Shown here: piece after piece, positions 46,585 to 64,000 of the stretch
Layout: each line of letters starts with the position of its first letter
Position numbering within the stretch: position 1 is the first letter of the stretch
Source of the DNA: Streptomyces sp. PH10-H1
GTDB lineage: Bacteria > Actinomycetota > Actinomycetes > Streptomycetales > Streptomycetaceae
DNA length: 64,000 nucleotides
Direction: 5' to 3'
NCBI RefSeq assembly: GCF_030063355.1
Contig: NZ_JASISZ010000002.1
Location: forward strand, 119,220-183,219
Notes under the pieces: model-generated
What the model saw: only the letters and a program-made list of their open reading frames with translations
Database searches by the model: none
Told to the model about the DNA's origin: nothing
Position numbers and translations under genes: made by a program

Positions 46585-46842
46585 ATGTCGCGTATCGCCA
46601 AGGCAGCAGCCATCACCGCCGCGGCCGGTGCCGTCCTGGCCGGCGGCGCCGGCATGGCCGTCGCCGACGCCACCGCCCATGGTGCGGCTGTCGGTTCCCC
46701 CGGCGTCCTGTCCGGCAACCTGGTCCAGGTGCCCGTCCACGTGCCCGTCAACGTCTGCGGCAACTCCGTCAACGTGATCGGGCTCCTGAACCCGGCGTTC
46801 GGCAACCACTGCGAGAACGTCTCGGGCCACGACGGCTGGTAA
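46585..46842 (+). CDS. Short chaplin
   Basis: An 85-aa secreted amyloid surfactant from the ATG at 46585 (AAGGAG upstream). The signal peptide ends near GMAVADA. The mature part is one chaplin domain: SPGVLSGNLVQVPVHVPVNV, then CGNSVNVIGLLNPAFGN with the two conserved cysteines (CGN and HCEN). It has a short unusual C-terminal extension, SGHDGW. Short chaplins assemble into amyloid fibrils at the air-water interface, coating aerial hyphae and spores with the rodlins. In S. coelicolor, from memory, a chaplin gene also lies next to melC2. Confidence 0.93.
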   Translation: MSRIAKAAAITAAAGAVLAGGAGMAVADATAHGAAVGSPGVLSGNLVQVPVHVPVNVCGNSVNVIGLLNPAFGNHCENVSGHDGW

Positions 46843-46882
46843 TCCCGGTTCCTCCGGTACGGGGAGAACACCCCTATGAGTG

Positions 46883-46919
46883 GTGCGGCCTCCCGCGATG
46901 CCTTCGCGGGAGGCCGCAC
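46883..46919. terminator. Bidirectional terminator hairpin
   Basis: A 16-bp perfect stem (GTGCGGCCTCCCGCGA with its complement at 46904-46919) with loop TGCCT, between the convergent chaplin and tyrosinase genes. Confidence 0.9.
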
Positions 46920-46942
46920 TCGTACGTCCGCCCTACGGCGCG

Positions 46943-47812
46943 TCAGTTCTCCTCGTACCGGTAGACGCCCCGGGTGTCGAGGTGGTCGGACGGCTTCGCG
47001 TTCCACGGCGGCATGGGCTCATGGAGGCTGACGACCCGTCCGTGCTCCTGGTCGGAGTGGGCCAGCGGCTTGGCCGGCAGATAGCCCGACTTCGGATGCT
47101 TGCGCTGCCAGCGGATCCAGATGAGGTCGACGAAGGCGTGGTGGAGCCAGAAGACCGGGTCGTTGGGCGAGGTGGCGCCCGTCATGTGGCCGCCGACCCA
47201 CTGATGGACCCGGTTGTGGATATAGCCGCCCTGCCGCTCGCTGACCGTCCAGCCCTCGAACTTGTTGCGAAAGCCCGCGGTGGAGGCGGTGGAATTCCAG
47301 GGGGAGGCGTCGTAGACCGGGTTCTCGATGGCCTTGGCCAGTTCGCTCTTCGTGGGCAGCGCGATGGGGCGGTCGGGGCGGCCGAACTGCCGGGTCAGAT
47401 ACTTCTCATCCGTGACTCCGTTGGTGATCGGCCAGTATCCGTTGGAATACGCGAAGGGGCCGGTCAGGACCTGTCCATCGCTCGAACGGCCGTTGCCGCC
47501 CATGAAATCCTTCGCCCACAGCGAGGAGGACGGTGAGCTGTCCCGCGTCCAGTCCCAGTAGGGCACGGTGACCCCCGGATCCACGGATTGCAATGAGCGT
47601 TCGAATTCCAGGAGCAGCCGGCGGTGCCATGGGAAGAACGAAGGCGCCATATGGCCGACCCGGAGCCCGGTGTCTCCGTCGGAGACGTAGTACTGACCGT
47701 GCAGGCGGACGAAATCGTCGTAGGCGCCGTTCGATTTGAGTGCCAGCACCGCATTGACGAATCTCTTCTTCTGGGAGCTGGTGAGGTTCTTCTGGTTCTT
47801 GCGGATGTACAC
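46943..47812 (-). CDS. melC2: Tyrosinase
   Basis: A 289-aa type 3 copper monophenol oxidase. Copper ligands: first site HGQYYVSDGD (His of LHGQ), HMAPSFFPWHRRLLLEFER; second site HNRVHQWVGGHM and FWLHHAFVDLIWIRWQ. The sequence lacks a signal peptide, as expected; export relies on the MelC1 partner. The enzyme oxidises tyrosine to dopaquinone for melanin. It is translated 20 bp after melC1 in the same operon. Confidence 0.96.
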   Translation of the reverse strand: MYIRKNQKNLTSSQKKRFVNAVLALKSNGAYDDFVRLHGQYYVSDGDTGLRVGHMAPSFFPWHRRLLLEFERSLQSVDPGVTVPYWDWTRDSSPSSSLWAKDFMGGNGRSSDGQVLTGPFAYSNGYWPITNGVTDEKYLTRQFGRPDRPIALPTKSELAKAIENPVYDASPWNSTASTAGFRNKFEGWTVSERQGGYIHNRVHQWVGGHMTGATSPNDPVFWLHHAFVDLIWIRWQRKHPKSGYLPAKPLAHSDQEHGRVVSLHEPMPPWNAKPSDHLDTRGVYRYEEN

Positions 47813-47832
47813 CGGTATCGGTCCTTCTCCGG

Positions 47833-48312
47833 TCAGTGGTGGTAGGAAGTGGCCAGTGACAGCTGAGCGCCGCCGATCACATCGACCGCGCCGCGGGCTG
47901 TGGCGAGCGGTGTGGCGAACGACTGGTAGTGGTTCGCCACGCTCACATAGCTGCCGTCCGCGCGGCGCATGACATGGAGGGGCCTGCCGTCGATGAGGAT
48001 GTCGACACCGGGTTTCGCGGTGGCGCCATCGGCGGTCGCGTCCGTGCCCGTGGGAAGGCCCCGAATACGACGGCCCCGGTAGATCTCGTCGAACGCTCCG
48101 GCGGACGGATCCGACGGGGGGCGGTCGTCCCCGGTACCCCCGGCCGTCCCCTGCGTCCCGGTGGCCTCGGTCCGTTTGGCCGTGAGGATCGGATAGAGCG
48201 CCGCGGTCGTACCCGTGACGGTGACGGCGGCGGTGATCGCCGCCTTGAGCATCCTCCGCCGAGTGACGGAGGACGGCGCTTTCCCGCCGCTGCTTTCCTT
48301 GGCCTCGCTCAT
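47833..48312 (-). CDS. melC1: Tyrosinase cofactor / copper chaperone MelC1
   Basis: A 159-aa helper protein from the ATG at 48312, which has AGGGGAGC upstream. A twin-arginine-type signal is present (SVTRRRMLKAAITAAV) and carries the MelC2 complex across the membrane. The mature part has the MelC1 features: DEIYRGRRIRGLPTG, GVDILIDGRPLHVMRRADGS, and the terminal ATSYHH, whose histidines plausibly help transfer copper. It is first in the melC1-melC2 operon. Confidence 0.93.
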   Translation of the reverse strand: MSEAKESSGGKAPSSVTRRRMLKAAITAAVTVTGTTAALYPILTAKRTEATGTQGTAGGTGDDRPPSDPSAGAFDEIYRGRRIRGLPTGTDATADGATAKPGVDILIDGRPLHVMRRADGSYVSVANHYQSFATPLATARGAVDVIGGAQLSLATSYHH

Positions 48313-48785: not shown

Positions 48786-50372
48786 ATGGCCCACCGACGC
48801 CAGAGGCTGACCGGTACATGTGTCGGAGCGGTCACCGCCGTCCTGCTCATGTTCGGAATGACCCATGCCGCCGAGGTCGAGATCCGCAATACGTCGGACA
48901 GCACCGATCCGACGCCGAAGCCGGCATTCCCCGGACCCGACAGGACGGGCGGCTCCGCGGGGTACGCACCCATGGGGGCGTTCACGTCCTCCGGCGCCGA
49001 TGGCGTGCAGCGCATCTCCGACCTGGAGAACTGGCTGGGCGGCACCAACCTCAAGGTGGGCCACACCTATCTCCCCGGTGAGAGCTGGTCCAACATCGAG
49101 GGCGATCCCGAGCTGCTGCAGCCGTGGGCCAAGTGGAAGCGCGCCGACGCGGACCGGCAGTTCGTCCTCAACGTGCCGATGCAGGAGCGCAACGAGCAGC
49201 ATGTCTCCGACGACGAGGTGCGGGATCTGCTGCACTCGGGAGCGTCTGGCGCGTTCGACGGCCACTTCACCAAGCTGGCCGAGCGGCTGGTCGCTCTGAA
49301 CGTGCCCGACACCGTCATCGTCCTGGGCTGGGAGATGAACGGCACCACGTACACCCACCGCTGCGGTCCCGATCCCACGTCCTGGAAGGCGTACTGGAAC
49401 CGCATCGTGGCCGCCATGCGCGCCGTCCCCGGACAGCGGTTCCGGTTCGACTTCACACCGAACCGCGGCGAGGACGCGATCGGATGGACGGCGTGCTATC
49501 CCGGTGACTCCGTCGTGGACATCATCGGCATGGACTCGTACGACCAGCCGCCGGGCGACTCGTTCTACGACCAGGTCGAGCAGCCGTTCGGTCTCCAGGC
49601 GCACGTGGATTTCGCGGCGGAGCACAAGAAGCCGGTCTCCTATCCGGAGTGGGGGCTCTTCCGGAACGGCGACAACCCGGACTACATGCGGATGATGCTC
49701 CAGTGGATCACTGATCACCGGCCGGTCTACCAGACCCTGACGGACTACTGCCCGCACGGTGTGTGGCAGTGCACGGAGAACCCGAAATCGTCGAAGGTGT
49801 TCCGCGCGCTGAACTTCAACCGCATCGAACCGAAGCCGGAGCCTACGCCGAAGCCGGTCCCGACGCCGATGCCGGTCCCCACGACGCCGACCCCGACGGC
49901 GTCCCCGGGCGCGACGCCGGGCGCGACGCCGAATCCAGCCGTCACGCCGACGCCGACGGGCAGTGCTATGCCGACGGTCTCTCCGACGCCCACGGTGTCC
50001 CCGATGCCGACGGTGGCACCCACGGTGACACCGACCGTCGCGCCGGTGCCCGCCGTCACCCCGGCGCCCGCTCCGGGCCTGAGTCCGGCGCCGGGCACGA
50101 GTCCCGCCCCGGCGGTGAAGCCGGTGCCGGTGCCGGTGCCGGTGGCCGTCCCGGCGGTCGGTCCGACCTGCGCACCGGTGCAAGCAGCCGGCTTCACCTG
50201 CACCGTGGTGCCGTCCGGGGCCTTCAGCGCCGCCCCGACGCTCGCCACATCCCTGGCCGCCGCTCCCGCGGAAGCCTGTCTCCCTCTCGACATGAGCGAG
50301 GAATTCAAGCGTCAGTTCGGCAGCGGCCGGATGTGCTTCCGCATCGAGTGGAAGGCGCCCAAGAAGGTCTGA
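48786..50372 (+). CDS. Secreted GH26-like glycoside hydrolase with Pro/Thr-rich linker
   Basis: A 528-aa exported protein from the ATG at 48786 (GGAGGAG upstream). After a signal peptide (to about residue 30), a TIM-barrel catalytic domain (about 65-340) shows GH26-type features: acid/base Glu in VIVLGWEMNGTTYTH and a probable nucleophile Glu in VSYPEWGLFRN; GDSVVDIIGMDSYDQPPGDS is the usual barrel strand. GH26 enzymes cut beta-mannans or related beta-glycans. A long TPTP/PVPV/SPTP linker (about 345-455) leads to a C-terminal module with four cysteines (GPTCAPVQAAGFTCTVV, EACLPL, RMCFRIEW) that may bind a surface. Between melC and a rodlin, it may trim the aerial polysaccharide. Confidence 0.85.
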   Translation: MAHRRQRLTGTCVGAVTAVLLMFGMTHAAEVEIRNTSDSTDPTPKPAFPGPDRTGGSAGYAPMGAFTSSGADGVQRISDLENWLGGTNLKVGHTYLPGESWSNIEGDPELLQPWAKWKRADADRQFVLNVPMQERNEQHVSDDEVRDLLHSGASGAFDGHFTKLAERLVALNVPDTVIVLGWEMNGTTYTHRCGPDPTSWKAYWNRIVAAMRAVPGQRFRFDFTPNRGEDAIGWTACYPGDSVVDIIGMDSYDQPPGDSFYDQVEQPFGLQAHVDFAAEHKKPVSYPEWGLFRNGDNPDYMRMMLQWITDHRPVYQTLTDYCPHGVWQCTENPKSSKVFRALNFNRIEPKPEPTPKPVPTPMPVPTTPTPTASPGATPGATPNPAVTPTPTGSAMPTVSPTPTVSPMPTVAPTVTPTVAPVPAVTPAPAPGLSPAPGTSPAPAVKPVPVPVPVAVPAVGPTCAPVQAAGFTCTVVPSGAFSAAPTLATSLAAAPAEACLPLDMSEEFKRQFGSGRMCFRIEWKAPKKV

Positions 50373-50378
50373 CCGGAC

Positions 50379-50418: not shown

Positions 50419-50467
50419 GGGTCACCGGTTGGGCCAGTGGGGTGAAATCGCGGAACCAAACCAGAAT

Positions 50468-50486
50468 TGGACAGTTGATCAGTTCG
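50468..50486 (+). promoter_or_regulatory. Rodlin promoter element, copy 1
   Basis: TGGACAGTTGATCAGTTCG, 40 bp upstream of the rodlin start at 50527. It matches the element at 62310-62328 before the second rodlin at 17 of 19 bases and equal distance. It contains the palindrome TTGATCA(G). Confidence 0.7.
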
Positions 50487-50526
50487 CTATCAGTGACAGG
50501 AACATAGCTTTCAAGAAGGGCGAACC

Positions 50527-50937
50527 GTGCTTAAGAAGTTCATGGCCAGTGCAGCAGTTGCCGTTTCCATCGTCGGTCTCTCCGCCGTGGCTTCCCCGCA
50601 GGCGCTGGCCATCGGTAACGACAAAGGAACCTCCACGCACGACGGCAACGGCTCCGAGCAGAACTACGGCAACACCTACACCGGCGGCGAGATGAGCCCC
50701 CAGGTCGGCCTGGTGCAGGGCACGCTCAACAAGCCGTGTGTGGGCCTGCCCGTCAAGGCGAACGTCGGCTCGCTCGTCGGCGTGGTTCCGATCACGGTCC
50801 AGGACATCAATGTCCTGTCGTCGCCGCAGAACCAGCAGTGCACGGAGAACTCCGCCCAGATCAAGGGTGACGAGCCGCTCTCGCACATCCTGAGCCAGAT
50901 CCCGGTGGCGTCCGGGAACGGCCAGAACAACAACTGA
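50527..50937 (+). CDS. Rodlin
   Basis: A 136-aa secreted rodlin from the GTG at 50527. The signal peptide (LKKFMASAAVAVSIVGLSAV) ends near ASPQALA. The mature sequence has the rodlin block GNGSEQNYGNTYTGGEMSP, LNKPCVGLPVKANVGSLVGV, VPITVQDINVLSSPQNQQCT and IKGDEPLSHIL, with two conserved cysteines. Rodlins RdlA and RdlB organise chaplin fibrils into paired rodlets on aerial hyphae. The paralogue at 62368-62778 is about three-quarters identical by eye. Which one corresponds to RdlA or RdlB cannot be fixed here. Confidence 0.95.
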   Translation: MLKKFMASAAVAVSIVGLSAVASPQALAIGNDKGTSTHDGNGSEQNYGNTYTGGEMSPQVGLVQGTLNKPCVGLPVKANVGSLVGVVPITVQDINVLSSPQNQQCTENSAQIKGDEPLSHILSQIPVASGNGQNNN

Positions 50938-51300: not shown

Positions 51301-52068
51301 ATGCGCACCCACCGGATCACCGGCGTGCTCGTCTCGTCCGCCCTCATCGGCACCCTCGCGTTCGGCGCCGCCGGACCGGCATTCTCCGCCCCCGAGGTCC
51401 CCCCCGCAGGAAATTCCGCCCAGGCGGCGCCCGACGTCGCGGCTCTCCTGGCCCAGGTCATATCTCTCGGCCAGATCGCCGGTGTCCTCACACCGGTGAC
51501 GGAAGCGGTCAAGCACGTGCTCGCCGTCCCCGACGCCAAGCTGTCGCCGGATACAGCCGCGAAGGACGCCGCCGCGGTCAAGACCGCGATCGACGCGGCC
51601 AAGGTGGCGCCGGCTCTTCCCGCGACGCCGGCTCTTCCTGCGACGCCGGCTCTTCCTGCGACGCCTGCCCTTCCGGCGACGTCGGCTCTTCCTGCGACGC
51701 CTGCCCTTCCGGCGACGCCCGCCCTGCCCGCACTCCCGCTGCGCGGGGTCAGTGCCACTGACTCCTCGGCACCGCGGGCGGCCGACGTCAAGGCCGACGC
51801 GTTGGCCGCTCTGCAGACGGCCGTCAACGACCTGCTGAAGGCCGCCACGTCCGGCGACCCGACGGCGCTTGTCGGCGCCGCGCTGAAGGTCGTGACGGGG
51901 CTGGTCAACGTCGTGGTCGCCACGGTGCTGTCCGGTGGGCTGCCCGTGCCGGACCTGCCCGGTCTCCCGAAGCTCCCGGCGCTCCCGGTTCCCCTCCCGG
52001 CGCTCCCGGTTCCCCTCCCGCCGCTCCCGGTTCCCCTCCCGGTCCCGGTCCCCGGCCTCCCCGGCTGA
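51301..52068 (+). CDS. Secreted Ala/Pro/Leu-rich repeat protein
   Basis: A 255-aa protein with a signal peptide (MRTHRITGVLVSSALIGTLAF, cleavage near GPAFSA). A helical region (about 45-100) is followed by a tandem of ALPATP units (about eight, 103-148), then a hydrophobic helical segment (about 165-220), and a C-terminal Pro/Leu repeat (LPALPVPLP units, to LPG). No catalytic motif or cysteine is visible. Low-complexity hydrophobic secreted proteins of this kind could coat the cell surface. It sits between a rodlin and the exopolysaccharide operon, so a sheath role is a reasonable but unproven guess. Confidence 0.7.
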   Translation: MRTHRITGVLVSSALIGTLAFGAAGPAFSAPEVPPAGNSAQAAPDVAALLAQVISLGQIAGVLTPVTEAVKHVLAVPDAKLSPDTAAKDAAAVKTAIDAAKVAPALPATPALPATPALPATPALPATSALPATPALPATPALPALPLRGVSATDSSAPRAADVKADALAALQTAVNDLLKAATSGDPTALVGAALKVVTGLVNVVVATVLSGGLPVPDLPGLPKLPALPVPLPALPVPLPPLPVPLPVPVPGLPG

Positions 52069-52129: not shown

Positions 52130-53311
52130 TCAGATCCGCTCCGCCCGCCAGATGTTCAGCCGCGACCGCCAGGTACGCACCACCGGCAGGTGGCGGAGCA
52201 CCACCCGGACGAGCCAGGCCCGGCCCGCGGTCCGAGCCACCTGGAGCTGCAGGGCCGGCGCGAGCATGGGCCCCGCCATCAGCAGGCGCTGGTTGGCGGT
52301 GATGTCGGGGCACCAGGGGAGCTTGTCCGGGTGGTTGCCGCGCAGCAGGCTCAGCGTGCCGATGCCGGCACCGGCCGCGTGGCCGGCACCGTGCCGGAGC
52401 AGCATGGTGGTGACGTCGACCCTGGTGGTACGCAGCCGCGGATCGGCGCCGACGAGATAGCCGCCGACCAGCTGGGGCGAGAGCATCTTGAGGTCCGCGG
52501 CCACCACCTCGCCGTTCATCCGGTACTCGGTGACGAGGGCGTCGCCGCTGGCCACCATGTGCTGCGCGGCACGCTTGAGATGGTCGGCGAAACGGGGTCT
52601 GACATGCTCGGTGGTCACCCCGCGCCCCGCCCATTGCAGCTTGTGGAGCCGCAGCAGGTTCTCGACGGCCGCGGGCACCTCGTGCTCGGGAACGGCGTGC
52701 TCCTCGATGCCCATGGAGTCCAGCTTGCGCACCTTGGCGCGGGTGCGCTGCGCCCGGGATGTGGACATCCGGGTGATCAGCTCATCGATGGGGGCACCCG
52801 GCAGCTCCATGCAGACGGAGTCGGCCAGGCGTCGTTTCGGACCCTGCCAGCAGTCGTAGAGGAGGTCGGCCGCGGCGCCGGGTCGTACCTCGCGCAGGTC
52901 CAGTACCGCGCCGCGGGCCGCGCGGCGCAGCCCGCGGGCCATCGCGGTGGCGGCGATCGCGGCGGCGCCGTCGTCGAGCAGCACATCGGAGAAGTCCGTG
53001 ATGCGGCCGCCCAGCGGCACCAGGACCGGCAGTGGCCGGTGGGCCAGCATCAGCGGGGCGGCGCCGATCAGTTCACCGGCCTGCCGGACGAGGAGCACAC
53101 GGAGCCGGCGGGGCCTGCCGTACGACGTCCACCAGGAGTGCAGCCAGGAATGGGTCTGGAAGGAAGTGGCGGTCCGGCAGCGCCGGTACAGGCGCCCCCA
53201 TTCCTCCGCCAGGCCGGCGAACTGCAGCGGATCGCGGCACATCGTCACGGACAGGCCGGAGCCGCGGTCGCCGGAAGGACCACCGTCGGAAGCGGCGTCG
53301 CCCCCGGTCAT
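52130..53311 (-). CDS. CelD/BcsL-like GNAT acyltransferase
   Basis: A 393-aa cytoplasmic protein of the CelD/FemAB-like GNAT type used in exopolysaccharide clusters: SFQTHSWLHSWWTSYGRPRR near the N-terminus, LLVRQAGELIGAAPL, the central acceptor region RAKVRKLDSMGIEE, and the C-terminal GTLSLLRGNHPDKLPW, with the typical RG.E.YK-like acyl-CoA stretch. It probably acylates a sugar precursor or side chain. Last gene of the eight-gene minus-strand operon, overlapping the upstream gene by one base (TGATG). Confidence 0.8.
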   Translation of the reverse strand: MTGGDAASDGGPSGDRGSGLSVTMCRDPLQFAGLAEEWGRLYRRCRTATSFQTHSWLHSWWTSYGRPRRLRVLLVRQAGELIGAAPLMLAHRPLPVLVPLGGRITDFSDVLLDDGAAAIAATAMARGLRRAARGAVLDLREVRPGAAADLLYDCWQGPKRRLADSVCMELPGAPIDELITRMSTSRAQRTRAKVRKLDSMGIEEHAVPEHEVPAAVENLLRLHKLQWAGRGVTTEHVRPRFADHLKRAAQHMVASGDALVTEYRMNGEVVAADLKMLSPQLVGGYLVGADPRLRTTRVDVTTMLLRHGAGHAAGAGIGTLSLLRGNHPDKLPWCPDITANQRLLMAGPMLAPALQLQVARTAGRAWLVRVVLRHLPVVRTWRSRLNIWRAERI

Positions 53312-53973
53312 CAGGCCATTTCCTTGACCGTCGGGTGGATTCCCTGGGCCGGGGCGGGAACGGCCGCGTGGCCGGCCTCCCGGCGTCCGCGGCCACCGGG
53401 ACGGACGAGGAGGATCAGCGCGCCGAGCAGCCCGCCGGCGCTGGCACCGACGGCGGCGGAGAGCGATGTGGAGGGCGAGACGGGGGTGGACGGCGTGGCG
53501 GCCGGGGAGAACAGCAGCAGCCGCACACCGGTGTTGGCGGCGTTCTGATTACCGGTCGCGGCCAGCGAGTTCGCCACGGCGTTGGCGATGCGGGCGGCGG
53601 TCCCGGCCTGCGAACCGGTGCCGGTGATCGCGATCATCGGTGCGTCGGGCGAGGTGGCCGCCTGCACGCTGGTGCGCAGCGCGGAGACCGGCACCCCCGC
53701 CGCTTCCTGGGCGCCGGTCAGCACCGCCGAGCCGGTGATGACGCGCCCGTACGCCTGCGCGAAGCCCAGGGCGGTGGACGAGTCGGAGTGCTGCGGCACG
53801 ACGATGACGTAGCTCGTCGCGGAGTACTGCGGCGGGGTGACCACGCCGTATCCCGCGCCGCCGGCCAGTCCGAGGCCGATGCACAGCGGCAGCGGCCACC
53901 AGCGGGGCAGGCGCCGTGACGCGTCCCGCAGGCGGGTCGGCGCGCTGTGGGCGTGGGTTCGGGTCTCGTCCAT
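53311..53973 (-). CDS. Wzz-like chain-length / polysaccharide co-polymerase protein
   Basis: A 220-aa membrane protein with two helices (WPLPLCIGLGLAGGAGYGV, about 26-46; LSAAVGASAGGLLGALILLV, about 168-188) around an extracytoplasmic domain (QYSATSYVIVVPQHSDSST), the usual Wzz topology. The proline-rich motif near the second helix is weak. Wzz proteins set polymer length with the polymerase. It is translated 20 bp after the glycosyltransferase. Confidence 0.75.
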   Translation of the reverse strand: MDETRTHAHSAPTRLRDASRRLPRWWPLPLCIGLGLAGGAGYGVVTPPQYSATSYVIVVPQHSDSSTALGFAQAYGRVITGSAVLTGAQEAAGVPVSALRTSVQAATSPDAPMIAITGTGSQAGTAARIANAVANSLAATGNQNAANTGVRLLLFSPAATPSTPVSPSTSLSAAVGASAGGLLGALILLVRPGGRGRREAGHAAVPAPAQGIHPTVKEMA

Positions 53974-56026: not shown

Positions 56027-57761
56027 GGGGGAGCTTTCGTTTCACGGTGGCGAGCAGGTGCGGGACTTCCGGCACCTGTACGGCGGCGGCCGCCGCGGTG
56101 AAGGCGGCCGGTACGACGAGGCAGCAGACAGCGGTGCTCAGGAGCGGGTCGGGTAAGGCGGATGCGGTCGCCCAGCCGGCCGCGGTGGCGGCCGCGGCGG
56201 CCACGATGAGCCGGCCGATACCCGCCGCGACCTGGCGGGGCCTGATGGCGATCGGCTGGGCGCCGAGGCCGCGCAGCAGCAGCACGGCGGTGGTGGTGAT
56301 ACCGGCGGCGTTGGCGCCGGCGATGCCGTAGATGCCCCAGTACCCGACGGTGGCGGCCCCCGCGGTGATGGTGATCAGCAGTCCGACGGCCATGGCGGCG
56401 GCCGGGTACCAAGTGGGCCGGGCGGCCGAGAAGAACGGCCGGACCAGGGCTCCCACCAGGCTCTGGCCGAGCAGGCCCAGTGCGTAGACCCGCATGACGG
56501 ACGCCGTCGCCGCGGTGTCCGCCGCGTCGAAGACCCCGCGCTGGAAGAGCAGTTCGATGATCTGCGGAGCGCAGGCGATGACGAAGGCGGTGCCCAGGAG
56601 CACCACGATGCCGGCCAGCGTCAGATCGCGTTCCACCCGGCGCCTGGCCTTCTCGGGTTCGCCGGCGGCCAGGGCCTGGGCCACGACCGGGAAGGTGACG
56701 GTGCAGATCATCAGCGAGAGCACCATCGGCAACTGGGCCACCTTCTGCGCGTAGTTCAGATGCGAGATGGCGCCGGCCGGAAGCGAGGCGGCGAAGAATC
56801 GCTCGATCAGGACCTGGGTCTGGCGGCTCAGGCTGAAGATGATCACGGGAGCCAGCAGCGCGAACCTCAGGGGCGCGGGGCCCGCCGCCTCGGTGACCGG
56901 CGAGATGGCGGCCGGCGAGACGGCGTGCGGCGTGACGGTATGCGGCGTGACGGCGTCCGGGGTGATGGCAGCCGGAACGACGGCTCGCGCGCTGTGCCGT
57001 CCGCGCGAGGTGCGCGGTGGCAGTTGGCGCAGGAACGAGGGCAGCTGGACGAGGACCATCAGCAGGCCGCCCATCGCGACGCCCGCGGCGGCGGCACGTA
57101 CCCCCCAGCGGGCGTGGAGCAGCAGCAGGGTGGCGATGATGCCGACGTTGTAGGCGACGTAGATGGCCGCCGGGGGGATGAACCGGCGGTGGGCGCGCAG
57201 CGCGGCGCTGAAGTATCCGGTGAGGCCGAACGTCAGGACGGTGGCGGCGGTCAGCCGGGTGCAGTCCACCGCGAGCTGAGGCGCGGTCAGGCCGGGCGCC
57301 ATGATGTGGACCAGAGCGGGCGCGCCCAGTTCGATCAGCGCCATCGCCGCGGCCAGGGCCAGCAGCAGCCGGGGCAGCGTGGTCGCCAGCAGCACCCGGA
57401 CCGGGTCGGGTCGCCGCCCGGCGGCGCGCCGGGCCAGCGCCAGGCTGAAGGCCGGGATCAGCAGGAGGGCCATCCCGTCCTCGATGAGAACGGTCGAGGA
57501 CAGTTCCGGCACCGTCCACGCCACCAGGAAGGCGTCGGTGGCGGGACCGGCGCCGAACAGATGGGCGATCGTCTGGTCGCGGATCAGGCCCAGGAGGGAG
57601 CCGGCGGCGGTGAGCGCGGCGGTGAGGGCCGCGGCCCGGGCCAGCACCCGGCCCAGGCCCGAGGGACGGGGCGACTCCGTACCCGGGCCGGCGACGACGG
57701 CCGGTTCGCCGAGGGGGGCAGGCCCGGCCTGCGGCTCGGCCTGCGCCGCGGTGTCCGTCAT
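56016..57761 (-). CDS. MurJ/MviN-like lipid-linked oligosaccharide flippase
   Basis: A 581-aa MOP-superfamily transporter from the ATG at 57761. Around 14 helices are expected; the signature stretches GLIRDQTIAHLFGAGPATDAF and GLTGYFSAALRAHRRFIPPA, and VLIERFFAASLPAGAISHLNYAQ, are MurJ-like. It probably flips an undecaprenyl-linked repeat unit, the Wzx role of this operon. An unusual Thr-Pro-Ala-rich insert with repeated TPHAV/SPAAI units interrupts the middle loop (about 270-300), absent from housekeeping MurJ. Confidence 0.85.
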   Translation of the reverse strand: MTDTAAQAEPQAGPAPLGEPAVVAGPGTESPRPSGLGRVLARAAALTAALTAAGSLLGLIRDQTIAHLFGAGPATDAFLVAWTVPELSSTVLIEDGMALLLIPAFSLALARRAAGRRPDPVRVLLATTLPRLLLALAAAMALIELGAPALVHIMAPGLTAPQLAVDCTRLTAATVLTFGLTGYFSAALRAHRRFIPPAAIYVAYNVGIIATLLLLHARWGVRAAAAGVAMGGLLMVLVQLPSFLRQLPPRTSRGRHSARAVVPAAITPDAVTPHTVTPHAVSPAAISPVTEAAGPAPLRFALLAPVIIFSLSRQTQVLIERFFAASLPAGAISHLNYAQKVAQLPMVLSLMICTVTFPVVAQALAAGEPEKARRRVERDLTLAGIVVLLGTAFVIACAPQIIELLFQRGVFDAADTAATASVMRVYALGLLGQSLVGALVRPFFSAARPTWYPAAAMAVGLLITITAGAATVGYWGIYGIAGANAAGITTTAVLLLRGLGAQPIAIRPRQVAAGIGRLIVAAAAATAAGWATASALPDPLLSTAVCCLVVPAAFTAAAAAVQVPEVPHLLATVKRKLPHVR

Positions 57762-59221
57762 CGGGCGGCCACCGGGTCGCCCGCGTCGCCCGAGGTGACT
57801 GAGGTGACCGAGGTGCCCTCGTCGTCCGCCGCGGGCTGCAGTGCCCAGGCGGCGGCCAGGCCGAACAGCAGGGCGGTCAGGACGGTGGAGGGGCCGCCGA
57901 TGTCGGAGTACAGGAAGTCGACGCACTGCCAGAGCAGGAGTGCGGTCGCGATCAGCCCGCGGTCGGTACCGTGGCCGGTGCGGTGGGCGGCCGTCAGCCG
58001 GCGCACTCCGCCGACCAGCAGGGCCGCCCAGCTGCCGACGATCAGGGTGACGCCGACCAGCCCCTGCTCGCTGAGGATGAGCAGATACATGTTGTGCGGC
58101 GACAGCAGGGGTTCGAGCTTGAACTGCTGGCCAGCACCCGCGGTGTCACTGCCGGACGACAGATTGAGCGCGGCATGCCCGTCGCGGTGGGCGGGGAAGC
58201 CCTTCAGACCGACGCCGGTGAACGGCTGCTCGCGCCACATGCCGGTGGCGGCGGCCCACAGGCTGTACCGGTCGGTCACCGACGCGTCGGGAGCGTCGGT
58301 CACCCGCGTGATGCTGGCGACCCGGTCGGTGATCAGCTGGGACCCCACGCCCGCGCCCCCGACCAGAACCACGCCCGCGGCGGCCGTCACCGCGAAGATC
58401 CGTACCGCCCGGCGCCATCCGGCCAGCACGGTCATCACGGTGCACGCCAGCACGGTGGCGATCCACGTGCCGCGGCTGAAGGACACCACCAGCGGGACGA
58501 CGAGCGCGGCGGCGCAGCCCAGCGCGGCCGGCCGGAGCCAGCGCGGCGCGCCGGCCGTGGCCGGGGCGAGGGCCAGGCCGACGGCGATCATCAGCCCGTA
58601 GGCGACCACCGTGGCCATGCCCATCACGTCCGAAGGACCGAAGGTCCCCACAGCGCGGATGTTCTCGCCCACGTACGAGGCACCCGTACCCGTCGCGTAC
58701 TGGTAGACGCCGATCGCGCCCTGCACCAGGGCGAGCAGGACGACGGAGCCGGCCACCACCAGGAAGTCACGGCGGTCGCGCAGCAGGAGCACCAGCGCGG
58801 TGGGCACGAGGACGAAGACCTGCAGGTACCGCACGAATCCGTCGAGGCTCGCCGCCGGGTCACCGGAGGTGATGGTGGCGATGGCGACCGCGACGACGGG
58901 TGCGCCAAGGATGACGGCGGCCGCGCGTGTCAGGGGCCGGGCCCGGTCGCGAAGGGCCCGGACGGCGCAGAAGGCCACCAGCACCGCCGAGGCCGCGTCG
59001 GCGGGGGTGATCTTGCCCGACGCGGTCACGTCCCCCGTCTCGATGGGGGCCGCGAGCAGCAGCACGGTCGCCAGCGCGGGCAACAGCGGCCCCAGCCATG
59101 CCCATTGACGCCATACACATTGACGCCGAGCCCATTGACGAAGGACATGGCCGATCGCGAGGCTGACCGCGCGCGGGCGCCGGCCGGGGTGGGAGAGGGT
59201 GCCCGGGATACCGGCGGCCAT
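57758..59221 (-). CDS. O-antigen ligase / Wzy-like polymerase
   Basis: A 487-aa polytopic protein from the ATG at 59221. About ten to twelve helices and the Wzy_C-type periplasmic loop (GTFGPSDVMGMATVVAYGLM, then SRGTWIATVLACTV, and the conserved PHNMYLLILSEQGLVGV) identify it as ligase or polymerase. It joins flipped repeat units or attaches the polymer. It overlaps the flippase by four bases. The N-terminus carries a duplicated WARRQ/VWRQWAW segment encoded by CATTGACG repeats on the plus strand. Confidence 0.85.
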   Translation of the reverse strand: MAAGIPGTLSHPGRRPRAVSLAIGHVLRQWARRQCVWRQWAWLGPLLPALATVLLLAAPIETGDVTASGKITPADAASAVLVAFCAVRALRDRARPLTRAAAVILGAPVVAVAIATITSGDPAASLDGFVRYLQVFVLVPTALVLLLRDRRDFLVVAGSVVLLALVQGAIGVYQYATGTGASYVGENIRAVGTFGPSDVMGMATVVAYGLMIAVGLALAPATAGAPRWLRPAALGCAAALVVPLVVSFSRGTWIATVLACTVMTVLAGWRRAVRIFAVTAAAGVVLVGGAGVGSQLITDRVASITRVTDAPDASVTDRYSLWAAATGMWREQPFTGVGLKGFPAHRDGHAALNLSSGSDTAGAGQQFKLEPLLSPHNMYLLILSEQGLVGVTLIVGSWAALLVGGVRRLTAAHRTGHGTDRGLIATALLLWQCVDFLYSDIGGPSTVLTALLFGLAAAWALQPAADDEGTSVTSVTSGDAGDPVAAR

Positions 59222-59223
59222 GC

Positions 59224-60717
59224 TCAGCTCCCCCCGAATCGGAAGAGCGCCGTCGCGGTGAGCAACAGGATCCGGATGTCCTGCCACAGCGACCAGCTCT
59301 CGATGTAGTGGTTGTCGAAGCGGGCCCGGTCCTCGATGGAGGTGTCGCCGCGCAGACCGTGGATCTGCGCGAGCCCGGTGATGCCCACGGGCATCCGGTG
59401 CCGGTCCTGGTATCCGGGATACGACCGGCTGAACTGGCGGACGAAATACGGGCGTTCCGGTCGCGGCCCGACCAGGCTCATGTCGCCCCGCAGGACGTTC
59501 CACAGCTGCGGCAGCTCGTCGAGGGAGGTGCGGCGCAGAATGTGGCCGACCGTGCTCATCCGCCGGTCGTCGGAGACGTTCCACCGGGTGGCTGATTCGC
59601 GTTCGTCGCTCGGTCGCAGGGTGCGGAACTTCAGGAGGGTGAACGGCCGTCCGGCCAGGCCGATCCGTTCCTGGCGGAAGAGGACCCCCGGGCCGTCGGA
59701 CAGCCGGACGGCGAGGGCACAGGCCGCCAGGATCGGCGCGGCGGGGACCAGGGCCACGGAGGCGAGGACGGCGTCCAGGACGCGCTTGGACATCAAGGCG
59801 GCACCGGGGCGCGGATAGGGGTCGAGCCGGGAGCAGGCGAAACCCCACAGATGACCGGACGAGGAACGCACGCCGGTGCTGGACCCGGGCCCCGACCTGA
59901 CCTGCCACAGACAACAGCCACGGGCGGCGAGCAGCCGGACCAGTCCGGGGGTGTCACGGTCGCCCGCAGCGGCTCCGGTGAACACGGCGTAGCGCACCGA
60001 GTTCTGGATGATCGCCCGGTTCACACCCCCCGCGGACGTGAGCACGGGCAGCGACGATTCGGTGGTGGTGCCGGTGTCGGCGTGCACCACGCCGACCGCC
60101 CGCATGCCGTACTCGGGGTGCGCGAACAGCGCGTCGGCGATCTGGTGGACGGCCGGCCCCGTCCCCACGATCAGGGTCGAGCGCGGATGACGGCACGCCG
60201 ACCAGCGCTGGACGCGGTAGATCACCGCGCGGGCGGCGCAGGCCAGCAGGCTGGTCGCGGCTACGGCGGCGAGCAGCACACCCCAGCCGGGGGACCGCTC
60301 CGGGCGGACGGCGGTGAGGGCGGTGGCCGCGGCGCACCAGGCCAGGGCCGCGCACCCCGCCAGCGCGGGCAGTTCGTCGAGGGCCGCCGGGTCGAGACCC
60401 GTGCGGTACAGCCCGGCGTGGGTGTGCAGCAGCGTCAGGAACATCAGGAGCGGGCCGAGCAGCAGTACCGGAGTGGCCGGGTGGCAGGCCAGGACGCAGG
60501 CGGCGGCCGCACAGTCGGTGGCGATGAGCGGGCCGGTCGCACGGTGGCGGAAGGGGATCGGCTGGTGAAGTGGCGGGGTGGAGAGGTCGGTCGGCCGTCG
60601 CGGTGGCGAGATCGGGGCGGTCTGGGGTGGCGGGATCGGGGCGGTCGTGGCGGGCGCGACCGGGGGCTGCGTCACGTGCCGGGCCGGGTGGTGGGTGCTT
60701 GCGCTCTCCGTCGTCAT
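59224..60717 (-). CDS. Polyprenyl-phosphate glycosyl-1-phosphate transferase (initiating enzyme)
   Basis: A 497-aa WbaP/CpsE-type initiating transferase from the ATG at 60717. An N-terminal disordered Pro/Thr-rich leader of about 55 aa is followed by four helices, a Rossmann-like domain (CRHPRSTLIVGTGPAVHQIA), then the C-terminal bacterial sugar transferase domain with KRVLDAVLASVALVPAAP, TLLKFRTLR and SLVGPRPERPYFV. It loads the first sugar phosphate onto undecaprenyl phosphate. It starts two bases from the ligase and overlaps the upstream glycosyltransferase by four. Confidence 0.92.
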   Translation of the reverse strand: MTTESASTHHPARHVTQPPVAPATTAPIPPPQTAPISPPRRPTDLSTPPLHQPIPFRHRATGPLIATDCAAAACVLACHPATPVLLLGPLLMFLTLLHTHAGLYRTGLDPAALDELPALAGCAALAWCAAATALTAVRPERSPGWGVLLAAVAATSLLACAARAVIYRVQRWSACRHPRSTLIVGTGPAVHQIADALFAHPEYGMRAVGVVHADTGTTTESSLPVLTSAGGVNRAIIQNSVRYAVFTGAAAGDRDTPGLVRLLAARGCCLWQVRSGPGSSTGVRSSSGHLWGFACSRLDPYPRPGAALMSKRVLDAVLASVALVPAAPILAACALAVRLSDGPGVLFRQERIGLAGRPFTLLKFRTLRPSDERESATRWNVSDDRRMSTVGHILRRTSLDELPQLWNVLRGDMSLVGPRPERPYFVRQFSRSYPGYQDRHRMPVGITGLAQIHGLRGDTSIEDRARFDNHYIESWSLWQDIRILLLTATALFRFGGS

Positions 60718-61898
60718 CGCGTGATGCGTTCCCTGCACTCGGGGTGCGACAGATCGAGCACGTCGCGGTAGAGGTCGGCGACCGACGTCGTCGTCCGCCG
60801 CACGTCGTAGGTCGTGCGCACATGGGTGAGGGCCCGGCCGGCAACCGTGGTGCGCAGGCCGGGGTCGGTCAGCAGACCGAGCAGCGCCTGGACGAGGGCG
60901 CCCCGATCGCCGGGCGGCACGAGGCAGTGGCGTTCCTGACCGGGCGGCAGGCTCTCCCGGGCGCCGTTGACATCCGTCATCACCACGGGCCGGCCGCAGG
61001 CCATCGCCTCCAGCGGGGACAGCGCCATCCCCTCCCACCGGGACGGCTGGACCACCACATCGGCGGCCCGGTACCAGGGGACGGAGTCCCGCGTGGCCCC
61101 GGCGAACAACACCCCTTCGGGCGCGGTCCGGTGCAGCCGGTCCCGGTCGGGACCGTCGCCGACCAGCACCAGCCGCGCGTCGGGAAGCCGGGCGGTGATC
61201 TCCGGCCAGGCCCGCAGGAGCAGATCCTGGCCCTTCTGCGGACACAGCCGGCCCACACAGACCACCAGGGGGGCGGCCGGGGGCAGACCGGAGAGGGCGG
61301 GGAGCGACGTGCGGAGATCGCGGGCCCGGTCCTCCGTTCCGCTCCGGGGAGTGAACCGGTCGAGGTCGACGCCGTTGGGGATGACCGCCCAGCGGGCGCG
61401 TACCCCGGCGCTCTCCCCCGTCCGCCGTTCGCTCTCGCTCACACAGAGCACCCTGGTGGCCCAGCCCGCGGCCCATCGCTCCCAGCGCAGGGCCGCGTGC
61501 GCGGTCGCTCCGCCGACCGCCTCGAAGGACCAGGCGTGGGGCTGGAACACCGTAGGAAGGCGGCCGCGTACCGCCAGCCGTCCCGCCAGGCCCGCCTTGG
61601 CACTGTGGGCGTGGACCAGGTCCGGCCGGATCTGGCGGATCAGCCGGCCGGCGTGCCGGATCTCCTGGGGAAGCCGGGGACCGGGAGAACGGCCGGCCGC
61701 CCAGGGCACGACCTCGGCGCCCACGGCGGCCGCGTCGGCGGCCAGACCGCCGACGGGAGGGCAGGCCACGACCGCGCGGACCCCGTCACGTACCTGGGCA
61801 CGCACCAGGTCGGTGACGACGCGCGCGACCCCGCCGTCGACAGGCTGAACCAGGTGGAGCACCGTCAGCCGACCGGGGTCCTGCTGGTGTTGCGGCAT
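60714..61898 (-). CDS. GT4-family glycosyltransferase, first gene of the operon
   Basis: A 394-aa glycosyltransferase. N-terminal HLVQPVDGGVARVVTDLVR, acceptor region DLVHAHSAKAGLAGRLA, nucleotide site VVCVGRLCPQKGQDLLLRAW, and catalytic SRWEGMALSPLEAMACGRPVV. Closest in pattern to WcaA/PimB-like GT4 enzymes. It is the first gene of an eight-gene operon read away from the second rodlin. Its promoter must lie in the 470-bp region at 61899-62367. Confidence 0.92.
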   Translation of the reverse strand: MPQHQQDPGRLTVLHLVQPVDGGVARVVTDLVRAQVRDGVRAVVACPPVGGLAADAAAVGAEVVPWAAGRSPGPRLPQEIRHAGRLIRQIRPDLVHAHSAKAGLAGRLAVRGRLPTVFQPHAWSFEAVGGATAHAALRWERWAAGWATRVLCVSESERRTGESAGVRARWAVIPNGVDLDRFTPRSGTEDRARDLRTSLPALSGLPPAAPLVVCVGRLCPQKGQDLLLRAWPEITARLPDARLVLVGDGPDRDRLHRTAPEGVLFAGATRDSVPWYRAADVVVQPSRWEGMALSPLEAMACGRPVVMTDVNGARESLPPGQERHCLVPPGDRGALVQALLGLLTDPGLRTTVAGRALTHVRTTYDVRRTTTSVADLYRDVLDLSHPECRERITR

Positions 61899-62131
61899 CG
61901 CGCGCCGTTCCCTCTCTCCGCGACATGAAGAATCGGTTGTGTGCTGCCTGTCCCGGCCGCGAAAACAGCGGCCTGTCGCGGTATCAACGAAGGGGATGCC
62001 AGACAGGTAATCCTTGTCCGAGCGCCGGCGCGAATTGGGGCTCGGAGCTGCAGGAATGCACGGTGACAGACTGCGGGCTGAAAATCACGTGAGACGCGCC
62101 GACCTTGCGTTCCAGCACATTGTTATGACCA

Positions 62132-62142: not shown

Positions 62143-62309
62143 TCTGTTCCCTGTTGGGGACGCGTTCGCCTTTCGAATGAGTTCGCGAAGAAACGGCAGG
62201 AAACGGTGAGATGCGGCGAGATACGGCGGAATACCGAACACGCGGCACGCTCGTCCCCCGATCGGGTGCCCGTCACCATTTGGGTGAAGGGCCATAACCA
62301 AACCTGCGA

Positions 62310-62328
62310 TGGACGGTTGATCAGTCCG
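62310..62328 (+). promoter_or_regulatory. Rodlin promoter element, copy 2
   Basis: TGGACGGTTGATCAGTCCG, 39 bp before the rodlin start at 62368, differs from copy 1 (50468-50486) by A to G and T to C. The outer GGAC...GTCC adds to the central TGATCA palindrome. Confidence 0.7.
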
Positions 62329-62367
62329 ACCCGGTACCAGGGCAATCTCGCATAAGAAGGACTAATC

Positions 62368-62778
62368 GTGATCAAGAAGTTCCTCGCCACGGCTGCGGTG
62401 GCTGTCTCCGTCGTGGGCGTCTCGGCAGCGGTGGCCTCGCCGGCGATGGCCATCGGCAACGACGGCGGCACCAGCACCACCAACGGCAACGGTTCCGAGC
62501 AGAACTACGGCAACACCTACACCAGCGGCTACATGAGCCCGTCGTTCGCGCTCGTCCAGGGCTCCCTGAACAAGCCGTGCCTCGCGGTGCCGCTGAAGGG
62601 CAATGTCGGCTCGCTCGTCGGCGTGGTTCCGATCACGGTCCAGGACATCAACGTCCTGTCGTCGCCGCAGAACCAGCAGTGCACCGAGAACTCCTCCCAG
62701 ATCAAGGGCGACGAGCCGCTGTCGCACATCCTGGACCAGATCCCGGTGCTGTCCGGCAACGGCGTCGGCAACAAGTGA
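62368..62778 (+). CDS. Rodlin, second copy
   Basis: A 136-aa secreted rodlin from the GTG at 62368. Signal peptide IKKFLATAAVAVSVVGVSA, cleavage near SPAMA; mature part GNGSEQNYGNTYTSGYMSP, LNKPCLAVPLKGNVGSLVGV, VPITVQDINVLSSPQNQQCT, IKGDEPLSHILDQIP. Length, cysteines and spacing match the first rodlin. Paired rodlin genes next to chaplins are characteristic of Streptomyces rodlet loci, in which both proteins are needed for full rodlet structure. Confidence 0.95.
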   Translation: MIKKFLATAAVAVSVVGVSAAVASPAMAIGNDGGTSTTNGNGSEQNYGNTYTSGYMSPSFALVQGSLNKPCLAVPLKGNVGSLVGVVPITVQDINVLSSPQNQQCTENSSQIKGDEPLSHILDQIPVLSGNGVGNK

Positions 62779-63122
62779 TCCGCACCGTCTGAAGGCCCTG
62801 GCCGCCGGTGACCACCGGCGGCCAGGGCTTTTTTGCGTTGTGCGGGATGCTGTGCGGATGCTGTGCGGGAGCGGCGCGCGGGCTGTTTTCTTCACGCCTT
62901 TTTCGATTTCGCGAGAAGATATCAGCGACGACAATTCGTGAACCTTGACAGCGCAGTTACGTCATTAGAGTGGATGATCACCGGAGCGCAGTGCGAAGGG
63001 TTTCTCCTGTCATCGGCAGTCGTTACCCCGGAAGGTAGCGGTGTCACGGGTGGCATGAAATTCGCCCGGGCAGCACGACGGTCGTGACTGCGATGGACGC
63101 CCCTATGGAAAGGGAGCTCAAC
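62779..63122. promoter_or_regulatory. Intergenic region upstream of chaplin
   Basis: About 345 bp. After the rodlin terminator, a possible promoter is TTGACA (62945-62950) with TAGAGT 15 bases on (62966-62971). TGGATGATCACCGG (near 62971) shares the TGATCA core of the rodlin element. No gene is seen. Confidence 0.4.
62795..62834 (+). terminator. Intrinsic terminator after rodlin 2
   Basis: GCCCTGGCCGCCGG pairs with CCGGCGGCCAGGGC, followed by six T. It is the most canonical rho-independent terminator in the window. Confidence 0.95.
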
Positions 63123-63356
63123 GTGAAGTACTCGAAGGTTGCTGCGATCGCCGCCGGAACGCTGATGGCCCTGGGAGCCGCTGCACCCGCGTTCGCCGAC
63201 GCCGAGGCCAACGGTGTGGCCAAGGACTCCCCGGGCGTGCTGTCCGGCAACGTCGTCCAGGTCCCGGTCCACGTGCCGATCAACGTCTGCGGCAACACGG
63301 TCAGCGTCATCGGCCTGCTCAACCCCGCCTTCGGCAACAGCTGCACCAACAAGTGA
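63123..63356 (+). CDS. Short chaplin
   Basis: A 77-aa chaplin from the GTG at 63123 (AAGGGAG upstream). Signal peptide KYSKVAAIAAGTLMALGAAA with cleavage near PAFADA; mature domain SPGVLSGNVVQVPVHVPINV, CGNTVSVIGLLNPAFGN, then SCTNK. Two cysteines form the usual disulfide. It is ChpH-like by length and wording. Short chaplins self-assemble into amyloid and can be wall-associated through long chaplins. Confidence 0.95.
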   Translation: MKYSKVAAIAAGTLMALGAAAPAFADAEANGVAKDSPGVLSGNVVQVPVHVPINVCGNTVSVIGLLNPAFGNSCTNK

Positions 63357-63387
63357 CGTTGGTCATCAGCCCGTGAGGGCGACCCGT

Positions 63388-63425
63388 AGCGGCCCCGGAG
63401 CGCTGGCTTGTGCTCCGGGGCCGCT
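63388..63425 (+). terminator. Terminator-like hairpin between chaplins
   Basis: AGCGGCCCCGGAGC pairs with GCTCCGGGGCCGCT across a 10-base loop, 31 bases after the short chaplin stop. Confidence 0.8.
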
Positions 63426-63491
63426 GCGGCTCCGGCGCGCGGGAGAGCTTCCCGCGCGCATTCCGAACAACCCAAGGCAGGAAGAGAGTCG

Positions 63492-64000
63492 ATGCGACAG
63501 GCCTTGAGCAGGAGCTTGATCACCGTCGCGGCCGCGAGCAGCGTGCTCGCCGTGACCGGCGGCTACGCACATGCCGACAGCGAATCCCACTCGACCACGT
63601 CGAACTCGCCGGGTGTGGTGGCCGGCAACAGCGTCGCGGCCCCGGTGGACGTATCGGTGAACCTGTGCGGCAACTCGGTGGACGGCGCCGCGATGCTGAA
63701 CCCGGCATTCGGCAACAACTGCGCCAACGAGTCGGCCCAGGCGCACGATCACCGCGGGGGATCATCCGGCACGGACGACAACCGGGGCGGCGGCCATGCC
63801 GACAGCCACGCCGGTGACCAGTACGGAGGGCAGCACGGAGACCAGTACGGCGAGCAGTACTGGGAGCATTACGGAGACCAGGGCGGAGACGAATACGGAG
63901 ACCAGCGCGGCACGCGGCACGGCGGTCACGACAGCACTGCGGACTCACCCGGTGTTGCCTCGGGGAACAATGCCCGGGTTCCGGTCGAGGCCCCGGTCAA
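63492..64000 (+). CDS. Long chaplin, truncated by window end
   Basis: An open frame from the ATG at 63492 runs off the end of the window (169 codons seen). The signal peptide MRQALSRSLITVAAASSVLA has cleavage near YAHA. The first chaplin domain is NSPGVVAGNSVAAPVDVSVN, CGNSVDGAAMLNPAFGN, then NCANE. A hydrophilic linker of about 75 aa follows, rich in Gly, Asp, Gln, Tyr and His with repeated DQYG-like units, before a second chaplin domain starts (DSPGVASGNNARVPVEAPV) at the edge. Long chaplins carry two such domains and a C-terminal sorting signal for sortase anchoring. The linker repeats look unusual. Confidence 0.88.
   Translation, partial: MRQALSRSLITVAAASSVLAVTGGYAHADSESHSTTSNSPGVVAGNSVAAPVDVSVNLCGNSVDGAAMLNPAFGNNCANESAQAHDHRGGSSGTDDNRGGGHADSHAGDQYGGQHGDQYGEQYWEHYGDQGGDEYGDQRGTRHGGHDSTADSPGVASGNNARVPVEAPV

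Follow-up and report, generated by a model that had tools for sequence, protein, structure and literature searches.

We analyzed a 64,000-nucleotide stretch of DNA from Streptomyces sp. PH10-H1 (the window), which belongs to an Actinacidiphila-type genome of 8.54 Mb and lies on a contig of 289,566 bases. Positions 46585 to 64000 carry genes for three chaplins, two rodlins, the tyrosinase MelC2 and its co-factor MelC1, a secreted GH26 glycanase, and an eight-gene polysaccharide operon on the minus strand (61898 to 52130). A preliminary description made from the sequence alone had proposed this inventory, and every gene that it named was found, by Pfam or NCBIfam domain matches or, for the rodlins, by similarity. 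The cluster extends beyond the window, with the end of the long chaplin at about 64421 and a third rodlin at 65499-65912. The operon genes, in the order of transcription, and the GH26 gene, which is convergent with the operon, are as follows.

60714-61898, minus strand: GT4 glycosyltransferase A (gtA), first gene of the operon (PF13692, 133.2 bits)
59224-60717, minus strand: polyprenyl-phosphate hexose-1-phosphate transferase (PHPT), the initiator (TIGR03025, 344.4 bits, cut-off 295.6)
57758-59221, minus strand: polymerase of the Wzy/O-antigen-ligase family, called the ligase in the counts below (PF04932, 65.5 bits, cut-off 31.7)
56016-57761, minus strand: MurJ/MviN-family flippase (PF03023, 196.6 bits; TIGR01695, 214.8 bits, under the cut-off of 235.6)
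55142-56026, minus strand: NodB-type polysaccharide deacetylase (PF01522, 88.8 bits)
53994-55145, minus strand: GT4 glycosyltransferase B (PF13439, 92.7 bits)
53311-53973, minus strand: Wzz/polysaccharide co-polymerase (PCP)-like chain-length protein, weak assignment (TIGR01006, 30.5 bits, cut-off 296; no Pfam match)
52130-53311, minus strand: FemX-fold tandem-GNAT acyltransferase, last gene of the operon (PF13480, 79.7 bits)
48786-50372, plus strand: secreted GH26-type endo-glycanase with a Pro/Thr-rich tail (PF02156, 26.3 bits, cut-off 20.2; signal peptide read by eye)

The operon had been described as tightly overlapping. Five of its seven junctions do overlap, by 1 to 11 bp, but the other two are gaps of 2 and 20 bp. 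Its described content was recovered in full, except that the flippase is a MurJ-family protein and that the Wzz assignment is weak. No Wzx model (PST family) was found among the Pfam and NCBIfam matches of the operon's sole flippase, and a profile search of PDB sequences with the Wzz-like protein gave no match. The Wzy-family protein was putatively assigned as a polymerase rather than a ligase.

Invariance of the catalytic residues was scored on aligned copies from 135 loci, described below. Most of the tested motif residues of the initiator were invariant in 134/134 copies, while two motif positions vary. The D, D, H, H motif of the deacetylase was unchanged in 128/128 copies. The AlphaFold model of the acyltransferase (pLDDT 88.2) was nearest to FemX (6snr; Z 22.8, root mean square deviation [rmsd] 3.8, 298 residues aligned), FemA and the aminoacyl-tRNA-dependent Sbb17 and Sba18 (Z 21-23, with 21.4-21.7 for Sbb17/Sba18). 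The next folds were the lipid aminoacyl transferases MprF/PGS (Z 17.5-19.4) and 2hqy, a structure of unknown function (18.0), and the remainder scored 14.4 or less. A sequence-profile search of the PDB gave no FemABX match at E 0.01. The model points to a tandem-GNAT protein of FemX fold, and the use of aminoacyl-tRNA is only putative. The polymer-modifying enzymes proposed earlier are thus represented by a deacetylase with invariant catalytic residues and an acyltransferase with a predicted FemX fold.

In the GH26 protein, Glu 195 and Glu 300 of the query, in the motifs GWEMN and PEWG, were invariant in 119/119 and 118/118 aligned copies, respectively. We take these glutamates to be the catalytic residues of the family. 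The AlphaFold model (pLDDT 81.8) was nearest to the lichenase CtLic26 (2cip_A; Z 23.4, rmsd 2.6, 247 residues aligned), whereas most GH26 xylanases and mannanases scored Z 17-21, and the sequence profile matched 12 GH26 chains in the PDB, mostly mannanases. Because the nearest fold is that of a lichenase and the sequence matches are mostly to mannanases, the substrate is probably a beta-linked glycan.

A link between the GH26 gene and the operon had been suggested from the window, and it proved to be near obligate. Among 297 genomes of the family, 238 had both the operon ligase and GH26, 51 had neither, and only 8 were discordant, 4 with the one and 4 with the other (Fisher p 1e-47, without phylogenetic correction). 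One of the discordant genomes, G016, is 71% complete. The ligase matches in G026, G056, G116, G163, and G243 each contain one in-frame TGA, which may reflect decay or a sequencing error.

We then compared the surroundings of the operon in a set of loci. In the genus Actinacidiphila 35 genomes were searched, 29 of which have the ligase. Twenty Streptomyces genomes and loci of other genera were picked for long contigs and varied rodlin status, not at random. To these were added 80 named loci, the best-scoring of 493, from which 8 identical to genus loci were removed. The pooled, de-duplicated set comprised 135 loci, and leaving out 20 that were too short on one side yielded 115 full loci. The operon was intact, with few exceptions, in the 20 picked Streptomyces genomes and the 80 named loci, the acyltransferase being undetected in some. 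In 112 of the 115 full loci, GH26 and the operon are no more than about 10 kb apart. On these comparisons the real unit is the operon plus GH26, and we regard this conclusion as firm.

As functional amyloids, chaplins and rodlins are textbook examples. Their genes, and those of the tyrosinase, surround the operon and GH26 as follows.

46585-46842, plus strand: short chaplin (PF03777, 103.4 bits, cut-off 21; gene calls start at 46579, the first signal-peptide ATG is at 46585)
46943-47812, minus strand: tyrosinase MelC2 (PF00264, 153.6 bits)
47833-48312, minus strand: tyrosinase co-factor MelC1, twin-arginine signal read by eye (PF06236, 100.5 bits)
50527-50937, plus strand: rodlin adjoining GH26, 78% identical to the second rodlin
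62368-62778, plus strand: second rodlin, divergent from the operon, matching proteins annotated 'rodlin' on Streptomyces plasmids
63084-63356, plus strand: short chaplin, likely GTG start near 63123 (PF03777, 102.8 bits, cut-off 21)
63492-64000, plus strand, continuing to about 64421 (L009:2628-3641): long two-domain chaplin (PF03777, 134.7 bits, two stretches), with a C-terminal LAHTG sorting motif read by eye

The 28 other Actinacidiphila loci show a constant order: DUF5949, chaplin, melC2, melC1, GH26, the eight operon genes, and then a rodlin, followed by chaplins, a small protein, and usually another rodlin. Only the numbers of rodlins, chaplins, and repeat proteins vary, and the loci of G017 and G032 are cut by contig ends. 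As this order is kept in the other operon-bearing genomes of the genus, the clustering goes beyond chance. The placement of the operon between two rodlins, pointed out in the preliminary description, is true of the window but not general, since only 5 of the 28 genus loci covering that stretch have a GH26-side rodlin and the other 23 have none.

Absence of conserved linkage across genomes, named in the preliminary description as a possible refutation, is not what we observed. Among the full loci, a chaplin gene lies about 10 kb or less from the operon in 27/27 from Actinacidiphila and 69/77 from Streptomyces, that is 96/104 in these two genera, and in 0/11 from others. For rodlins the corresponding counts were 27/27, 24/77, and 0/11. 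melC2 was present in 27/27 full Actinacidiphila loci and not found in the covered stretch in 34/77 Streptomyces loci. Of the 63 full loci among the named ones, a chaplin is present in 59, GH26 in 62, melC2 in 35, and a rodlin in 27. By these counts the polymer operon and the chaplins form a well-kept neighborhood, in which rodlins and tyrosinase are optional.

The rodlins were examined over the family. Neither rodlin of the window is matched by a Pfam model; plasmid matches were under coding sequences annotated 'rodlin' in 11/11 records, at 65-75% identity. Counting rodlins only at E 1e-18 or better, which dropped weaker matches in 77/223 genomes, 120 of the 297 genomes had both ligase and rodlins, 122 the ligase only, 26 rodlins only, and 29 neither (odds ratio, 1.1). 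In Streptomyces, 39 of 129 ligase-bearing genomes were without a strong rodlin match, and 15 genomes had rodlins but no ligase. Rodlins are therefore unassociated with the operon over the family, which speaks against the joint system of polymer and rodlet layer that had been proposed. Co-inheritance of rodlins and operon had been suggested by the 35 genomes of the genus, where lack of the ligase and lack of rodlins coincide in the same five near-complete genomes, and was ruled out by the family-wide counts. A sixth genus genome, 71% complete, has rodlins and GH26 with no ligase match. The five genomes (G008, G010, G014, G025, and G029) lack ligase, GH26, and rodlins altogether and retain 5-9 chaplin matches each; this joint absence is probably one loss of the block. 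Passages of PMC4255298 describe rodlins as readily lost. Additional rodlin genes occur far from the locus, at G019:C1:609924 and 8482959, toward both ends of a 9.1-Mb contig, and on other contigs of G007 and G020.

Five histidines of MelC2, which we take to be copper ligands, were unchanged in all 74-76 aligned copies. The melC block was found on either side of the operon and in both orientations; with four states plus 'not found' counted as a state, it took 8 changes on the operon tree (FastTree, with some long branches, which makes change counts rough). In the preliminary description, tyrosinase was proposed as possibly cross-linking the polymer through Tyr-rich chaplin linkers. The linker of the long chaplin has 5 Tyr in 61 residues in this strain, compared with a median of 1 in 9 Actinacidiphila long chaplins, those 9 coming from only 13 two-domain proteins recovered. 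The Tyr-rich linker thus looks peculiar to this strain, which leaves the cross-linking proposal without support.

Other features lie at the edge of the module or within it, as listed here.

45753-46256, minus strand: DUF5949 gene, bordering the module (PF19374, 253.9 bits)
51301-52068, plus strand: secreted Pro/Ala/Leu repeat protein (no Pfam or NCBIfam match)

The DUF5949 gene accompanies the module in Actinacidiphila and on plasmids. The repeat protein has weak relatives, which a minority of genomes carry near chaplins or the locus. A small secreted protein (L009:4137-4484, window positions of about 64917-65264), located between the chaplins and the place of the third rodlin, has an N terminus resembling a chaplin signal peptide; it is kept in 27/29 Actinacidiphila loci, the other two being truncated by contig ends.

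The ligase was also found to be encoded on 7 of 72,556 plasmid records, all from Streptomyces, with GH26 and chaplin matches in 7/7 and rodlins in 6/7. The four plasmids that were opened are all linear. Three of them (NZ_CP108254, NZ_CP109020, and NZ_CP108296) carry chaplins, rodlins, tyrosinase, MelC1, DUF5949, the operon, and the glycosyl hydrolase in about 31 kb, and NZ_CP108509 carries the operon plus GH26, melC, and one chaplin. The ligase-bearing records represent few lineages, and five further plasmid records have rodlins without the ligase. Both S. melanogenes plasmids have a transposase gene between the first GT4 gene and that of the initiator. The sheath-gene set can thus be grouped on linear plasmids.

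We also looked for elements that might place the operon under the same control as its neighbors. Three promoter-like elements were located in the window.

61984-62008, minus strand: extracytoplasmic function (ECF)-type promoter-like element of the operon, ACC-N16-CGTTGA in its TTACC form (expected 0.37 times in the window, not significant alone)
50454-50480, plus strand: rodlin promoter-like element AACC-N16-GTTGATC (exact match)
62296-62322, plus strand: rodlin promoter-like element AACC-N16-GTTGATC (exact match)

TTACC-N16-CGTTGA precedes gtA in 17 of the 27 Actinacidiphila loci with a readable operon start; these are counts of loci, as G023 and G018 occur twice among the 29 gtA stretches. 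ACC-N16-CGTTGA occurs 38 times on both strands of the 29 Actinacidiphila stretches (1.89 Mb), 17 times at the operon, 9 times at chaplins, and 12 times elsewhere. AACC-N16-GTTGA was found in 28/57 rodlin upstream stretches of Actinacidiphila loci, and the strict form AAC-N15..17-GTTGA in 83/119 rodlin upstream stretches versus 0/121 gtA upstream stretches. Only the ACC-N16-CGTTGA form is common to operon and chaplins, and only in Actinacidiphila. The operon and rodlin elements resemble what we take to be the sigma-BldN promoter consensus. Chaplins and rodlins are sigma-BldN targets according to passages of PMC4125116 and PMC12096830. The operon element resembles a chaplin-type promoter in Actinacidiphila, and its dependence on sigma-BldN is putative.

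The region upstream of gtA differs between lineages. In 49/121 loci, none of them from Actinacidiphila, it contains an extra gene for a secreted DUF3344-like protein (26.7 bits, cut-off 27.2; for example, in L091 and L069), of which no relative was found in the window's genome at E 0.001. A looser form, AAC-N16..18-GTTG, was found upstream of this gene in 23/48 stretches. By eye, a shared stretch, ACGTGATTT ... TCTG ... CTCCTGTTT, was recognized upstream of gtA in Actinacidiphila and upstream of the DUF3344-like gene in some Streptomyces, which suggests an older common control region. A search for an RNA leader in the window and three Streptomyces loci gave no Rfam family at the gathering threshold.

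We consider it reasonably probable that a Wzy-type exopolysaccharide unit of ancient origin, which comes with a glycanase of its own, has been recruited here to the locus of the aerial sheath. The initiator would load a sugar onto undecaprenyl phosphate, the GT4s would lengthen the lipid-linked sugar, and the deacetylase and the FemX-fold enzyme would modify the glycan. The MurJ-type protein would then flip it for polymerization by the Wzy protein, and GH26 would cut or trim the chain outside the cell. In an ancestor shared by Streptomyces and Actinacidiphila, the unit would have come to be surrounded by chaplin genes, with rodlin and melC genes as well depending on the lineage, and it would mostly have been retained there. 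It would most likely supply a glycan to the sheath of aerial hyphae or spores that holds the chaplin fibers. This reading rests on the gene content, the intact catalytic residues, the co-inheritance of GH26, the chaplin linkage, and the promoter type shared in Actinacidiphila, from which we infer the enzyme activities, the order of the steps, the identity of the polymer, its location in the sheath, and any contact with chaplins.

Several observations weigh against recruitment to the sheath. In 8/77 Streptomyces loci there is no chaplin gene up to about 10 kb from the operon, and the exact operon element is missing from 10 of the 27 Actinacidiphila loci. In Streptomyces, a chaplin-type element upstream of gtA was found in 1/92 stretches and judged spurious, and the ACC-type form was found upstream of the extra DUF3344-like gene in 0/48 stretches; as the element was not found in Streptomyces, the promoter argument holds for one genus only. 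The chaplin state took 5 changes on the operon tree, indicating few independent origins of the linkage. Finally, 11 loci from four other genera and 2 loci of another family, f17, read over 20-33 kb, have the operon without chaplin, rodlin, or melC matches. The operon occurs away from these genes and therefore does not need them, which also contradicts the proposed joint system with the rodlet layer. GH26 is present in 9 of these 11 loci, the other two having been read over 20 kb only, with the operon end cut off, and in both f17 loci. In f17 (L216-L219) the gtA-like first GT4 gene is at the opposite end of the operon, adjoining GH26, and the acyltransferase was undetected in one locus. In a class-level sample, 13/148 genomes had the ligase, 11 of them in the window's family. 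The polysaccharide unit appears to predate its amyloid neighbors and to be independent of them.

Another possibility, which we find doubtful, is that the product of the operon has nothing to do with the aerial sheath and is a general vegetative capsule or a wall-linked polysaccharide, remodeled by GH26 during growth. The occurrence of the operon in genera without a visible chaplin tie is consistent with this idea, a MurJ-type flippase together with Wzy would suit a wall-linked glycan, and the conserved region upstream of the operon in some Streptomyces loci differs from the chaplin promoter type. This explanation does not account for the chaplin-type promoter and the rodlin-divergent layout in Actinacidiphila, nor for a chaplin linkage kept for so long. 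In our opinion it is unlikely that descent alone explains why polysaccharide and amyloid genes are neighbors, the two sets having been juxtaposed once in a common ancestor and kept together by inertia with no shared function. The operon is indeed co-inherited with GH26 and retained where no chaplin is near, it is unassociated with rodlins in the 297 genomes, and the chaplin linkage takes just 5 changes on the tree. Nevertheless, the neighborhood was reshuffled, as seen from the 8 changes of melC, and the chaplin stayed within about 10 kb in 96/104 Streptomyces and Actinacidiphila loci; moreover, the gene set is found together on plasmids too, and the chaplin promoter type is common to Actinacidiphila operons. 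The full model of the preliminary description, which unites rodlet layer, polymer, and tyrosinase in a single assembly with the polymer cross-linked by tyrosinase through Tyr-rich chaplin linkers, accords with melC2 being within the Actinacidiphila cluster and with the cluster on plasmids, and with the 5 Tyr of the linker in this strain, but it is highly improbable given the unconserved linker, the Streptomyces loci without melC2, and the independence of rodlins and operon over the family.

With the unit recruited to the sheath, as we favor, an amino-acylated sheath glycan can be envisaged as a long shot. The deacetylase would free amines of the repeat unit, to which the FemX-fold enzyme would add an amino acid from aminoacyl-tRNA, and the resulting charged or aromatic glycan would bind the chaplin amyloid. 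GH26 would set the chain length, tyrosinase could act on such a group where melC is in the cluster, and the whole kit would travel on linear plasmids. More generally, the missing sugar part of the water-repellent spore coat may be made by this operon. As a complete polymer pathway and a near-obligate glycanase lie close to chaplins in most of the examined Streptomyces and Actinacidiphila loci, a genetic test at a single locus is possible. The data also tell true co-inheritance, that of the operon with GH26, apart from mere proximity, that of rodlins and tyrosinase.

The chaplin/rodlin/melC locus of Streptomyces has the same gene set as the window, with the operon inside it in several of the Streptomyces loci read. 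We take the order in S. coelicolor to be chpG-melC-chpF ... chpA-chpD-rdlAB, and SCO2700-2715 to be the corresponding locus tags. One mention of SCO2713 was found in a passage in which its RNA was used as a control. No paper on the operon was found in the open-licence literature, as judged partly from passages, and supplementary microarray or chromatin immunoprecipitation lists may contain its genes; as far as searched, the operon and GH26 within the chaplin locus are unstudied. For a glycan, if any, around the chaplins and rodlins of aerial hyphae, we know only of CslA and MatAB. CslA/GlxA and MatAB likewise yield surface glycans in Streptomyces, presumably from another locus to judge by locus numbers, and differ from the multi-gene, Wzy-type operon described here. 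Passages of PMC5972031 attribute to CslA with GlxA a cellulose- or chitin-like glycan and to MatAB poly-N-acetylglucosamine (PNAG), and they describe the CslA product as acting with chaplins in attachment. The Ebosin ste cluster of Streptomyces sp. 139 is also a Streptomyces exopolysaccharide cluster, at a different locus, whose counterpart in S. coelicolor is given as SCO0381-SCO0401 in a passage of PMC4398421.

With Wzx/Wzy-dependent pathways the operon shares a PHPT initiator, GT4s, a Wzy-family polymerase, a tentatively assigned Wzz-like protein, and modifying enzymes in one operon, whereas the MurJ-family flippase, the convergent GH26 partner, and the monoderm, chaplin-linked context are different. 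As the flippase is MurJ and not Wzx, the operon would work like a Wzx/Wzy pathway without being a strict member. It also resembles the Caulobacter holdfast (Hfs) system, in which a polysaccharide deacetylase (HfsH) is likewise paired with a FemX-like tandem GNAT protein (HfsK). The NCBIfam models for HfsE (143.9 of 750 bits) and HfsH (30.2 of 400 bits) were matched far under cut-off. A monoderm would not be expected to have the outer-membrane export parts. Passages of PMC5362036 and PMC8449245 report that HfsH and HfsK both tune holdfast cohesion and adhesion, and HfsK is described in the former as closest to FemX. In Caulobacter, as far as those passages go, hfsK lies outside the hfs locus, whereas here the deacetylase and the acyltransferase genes are both within the operon.

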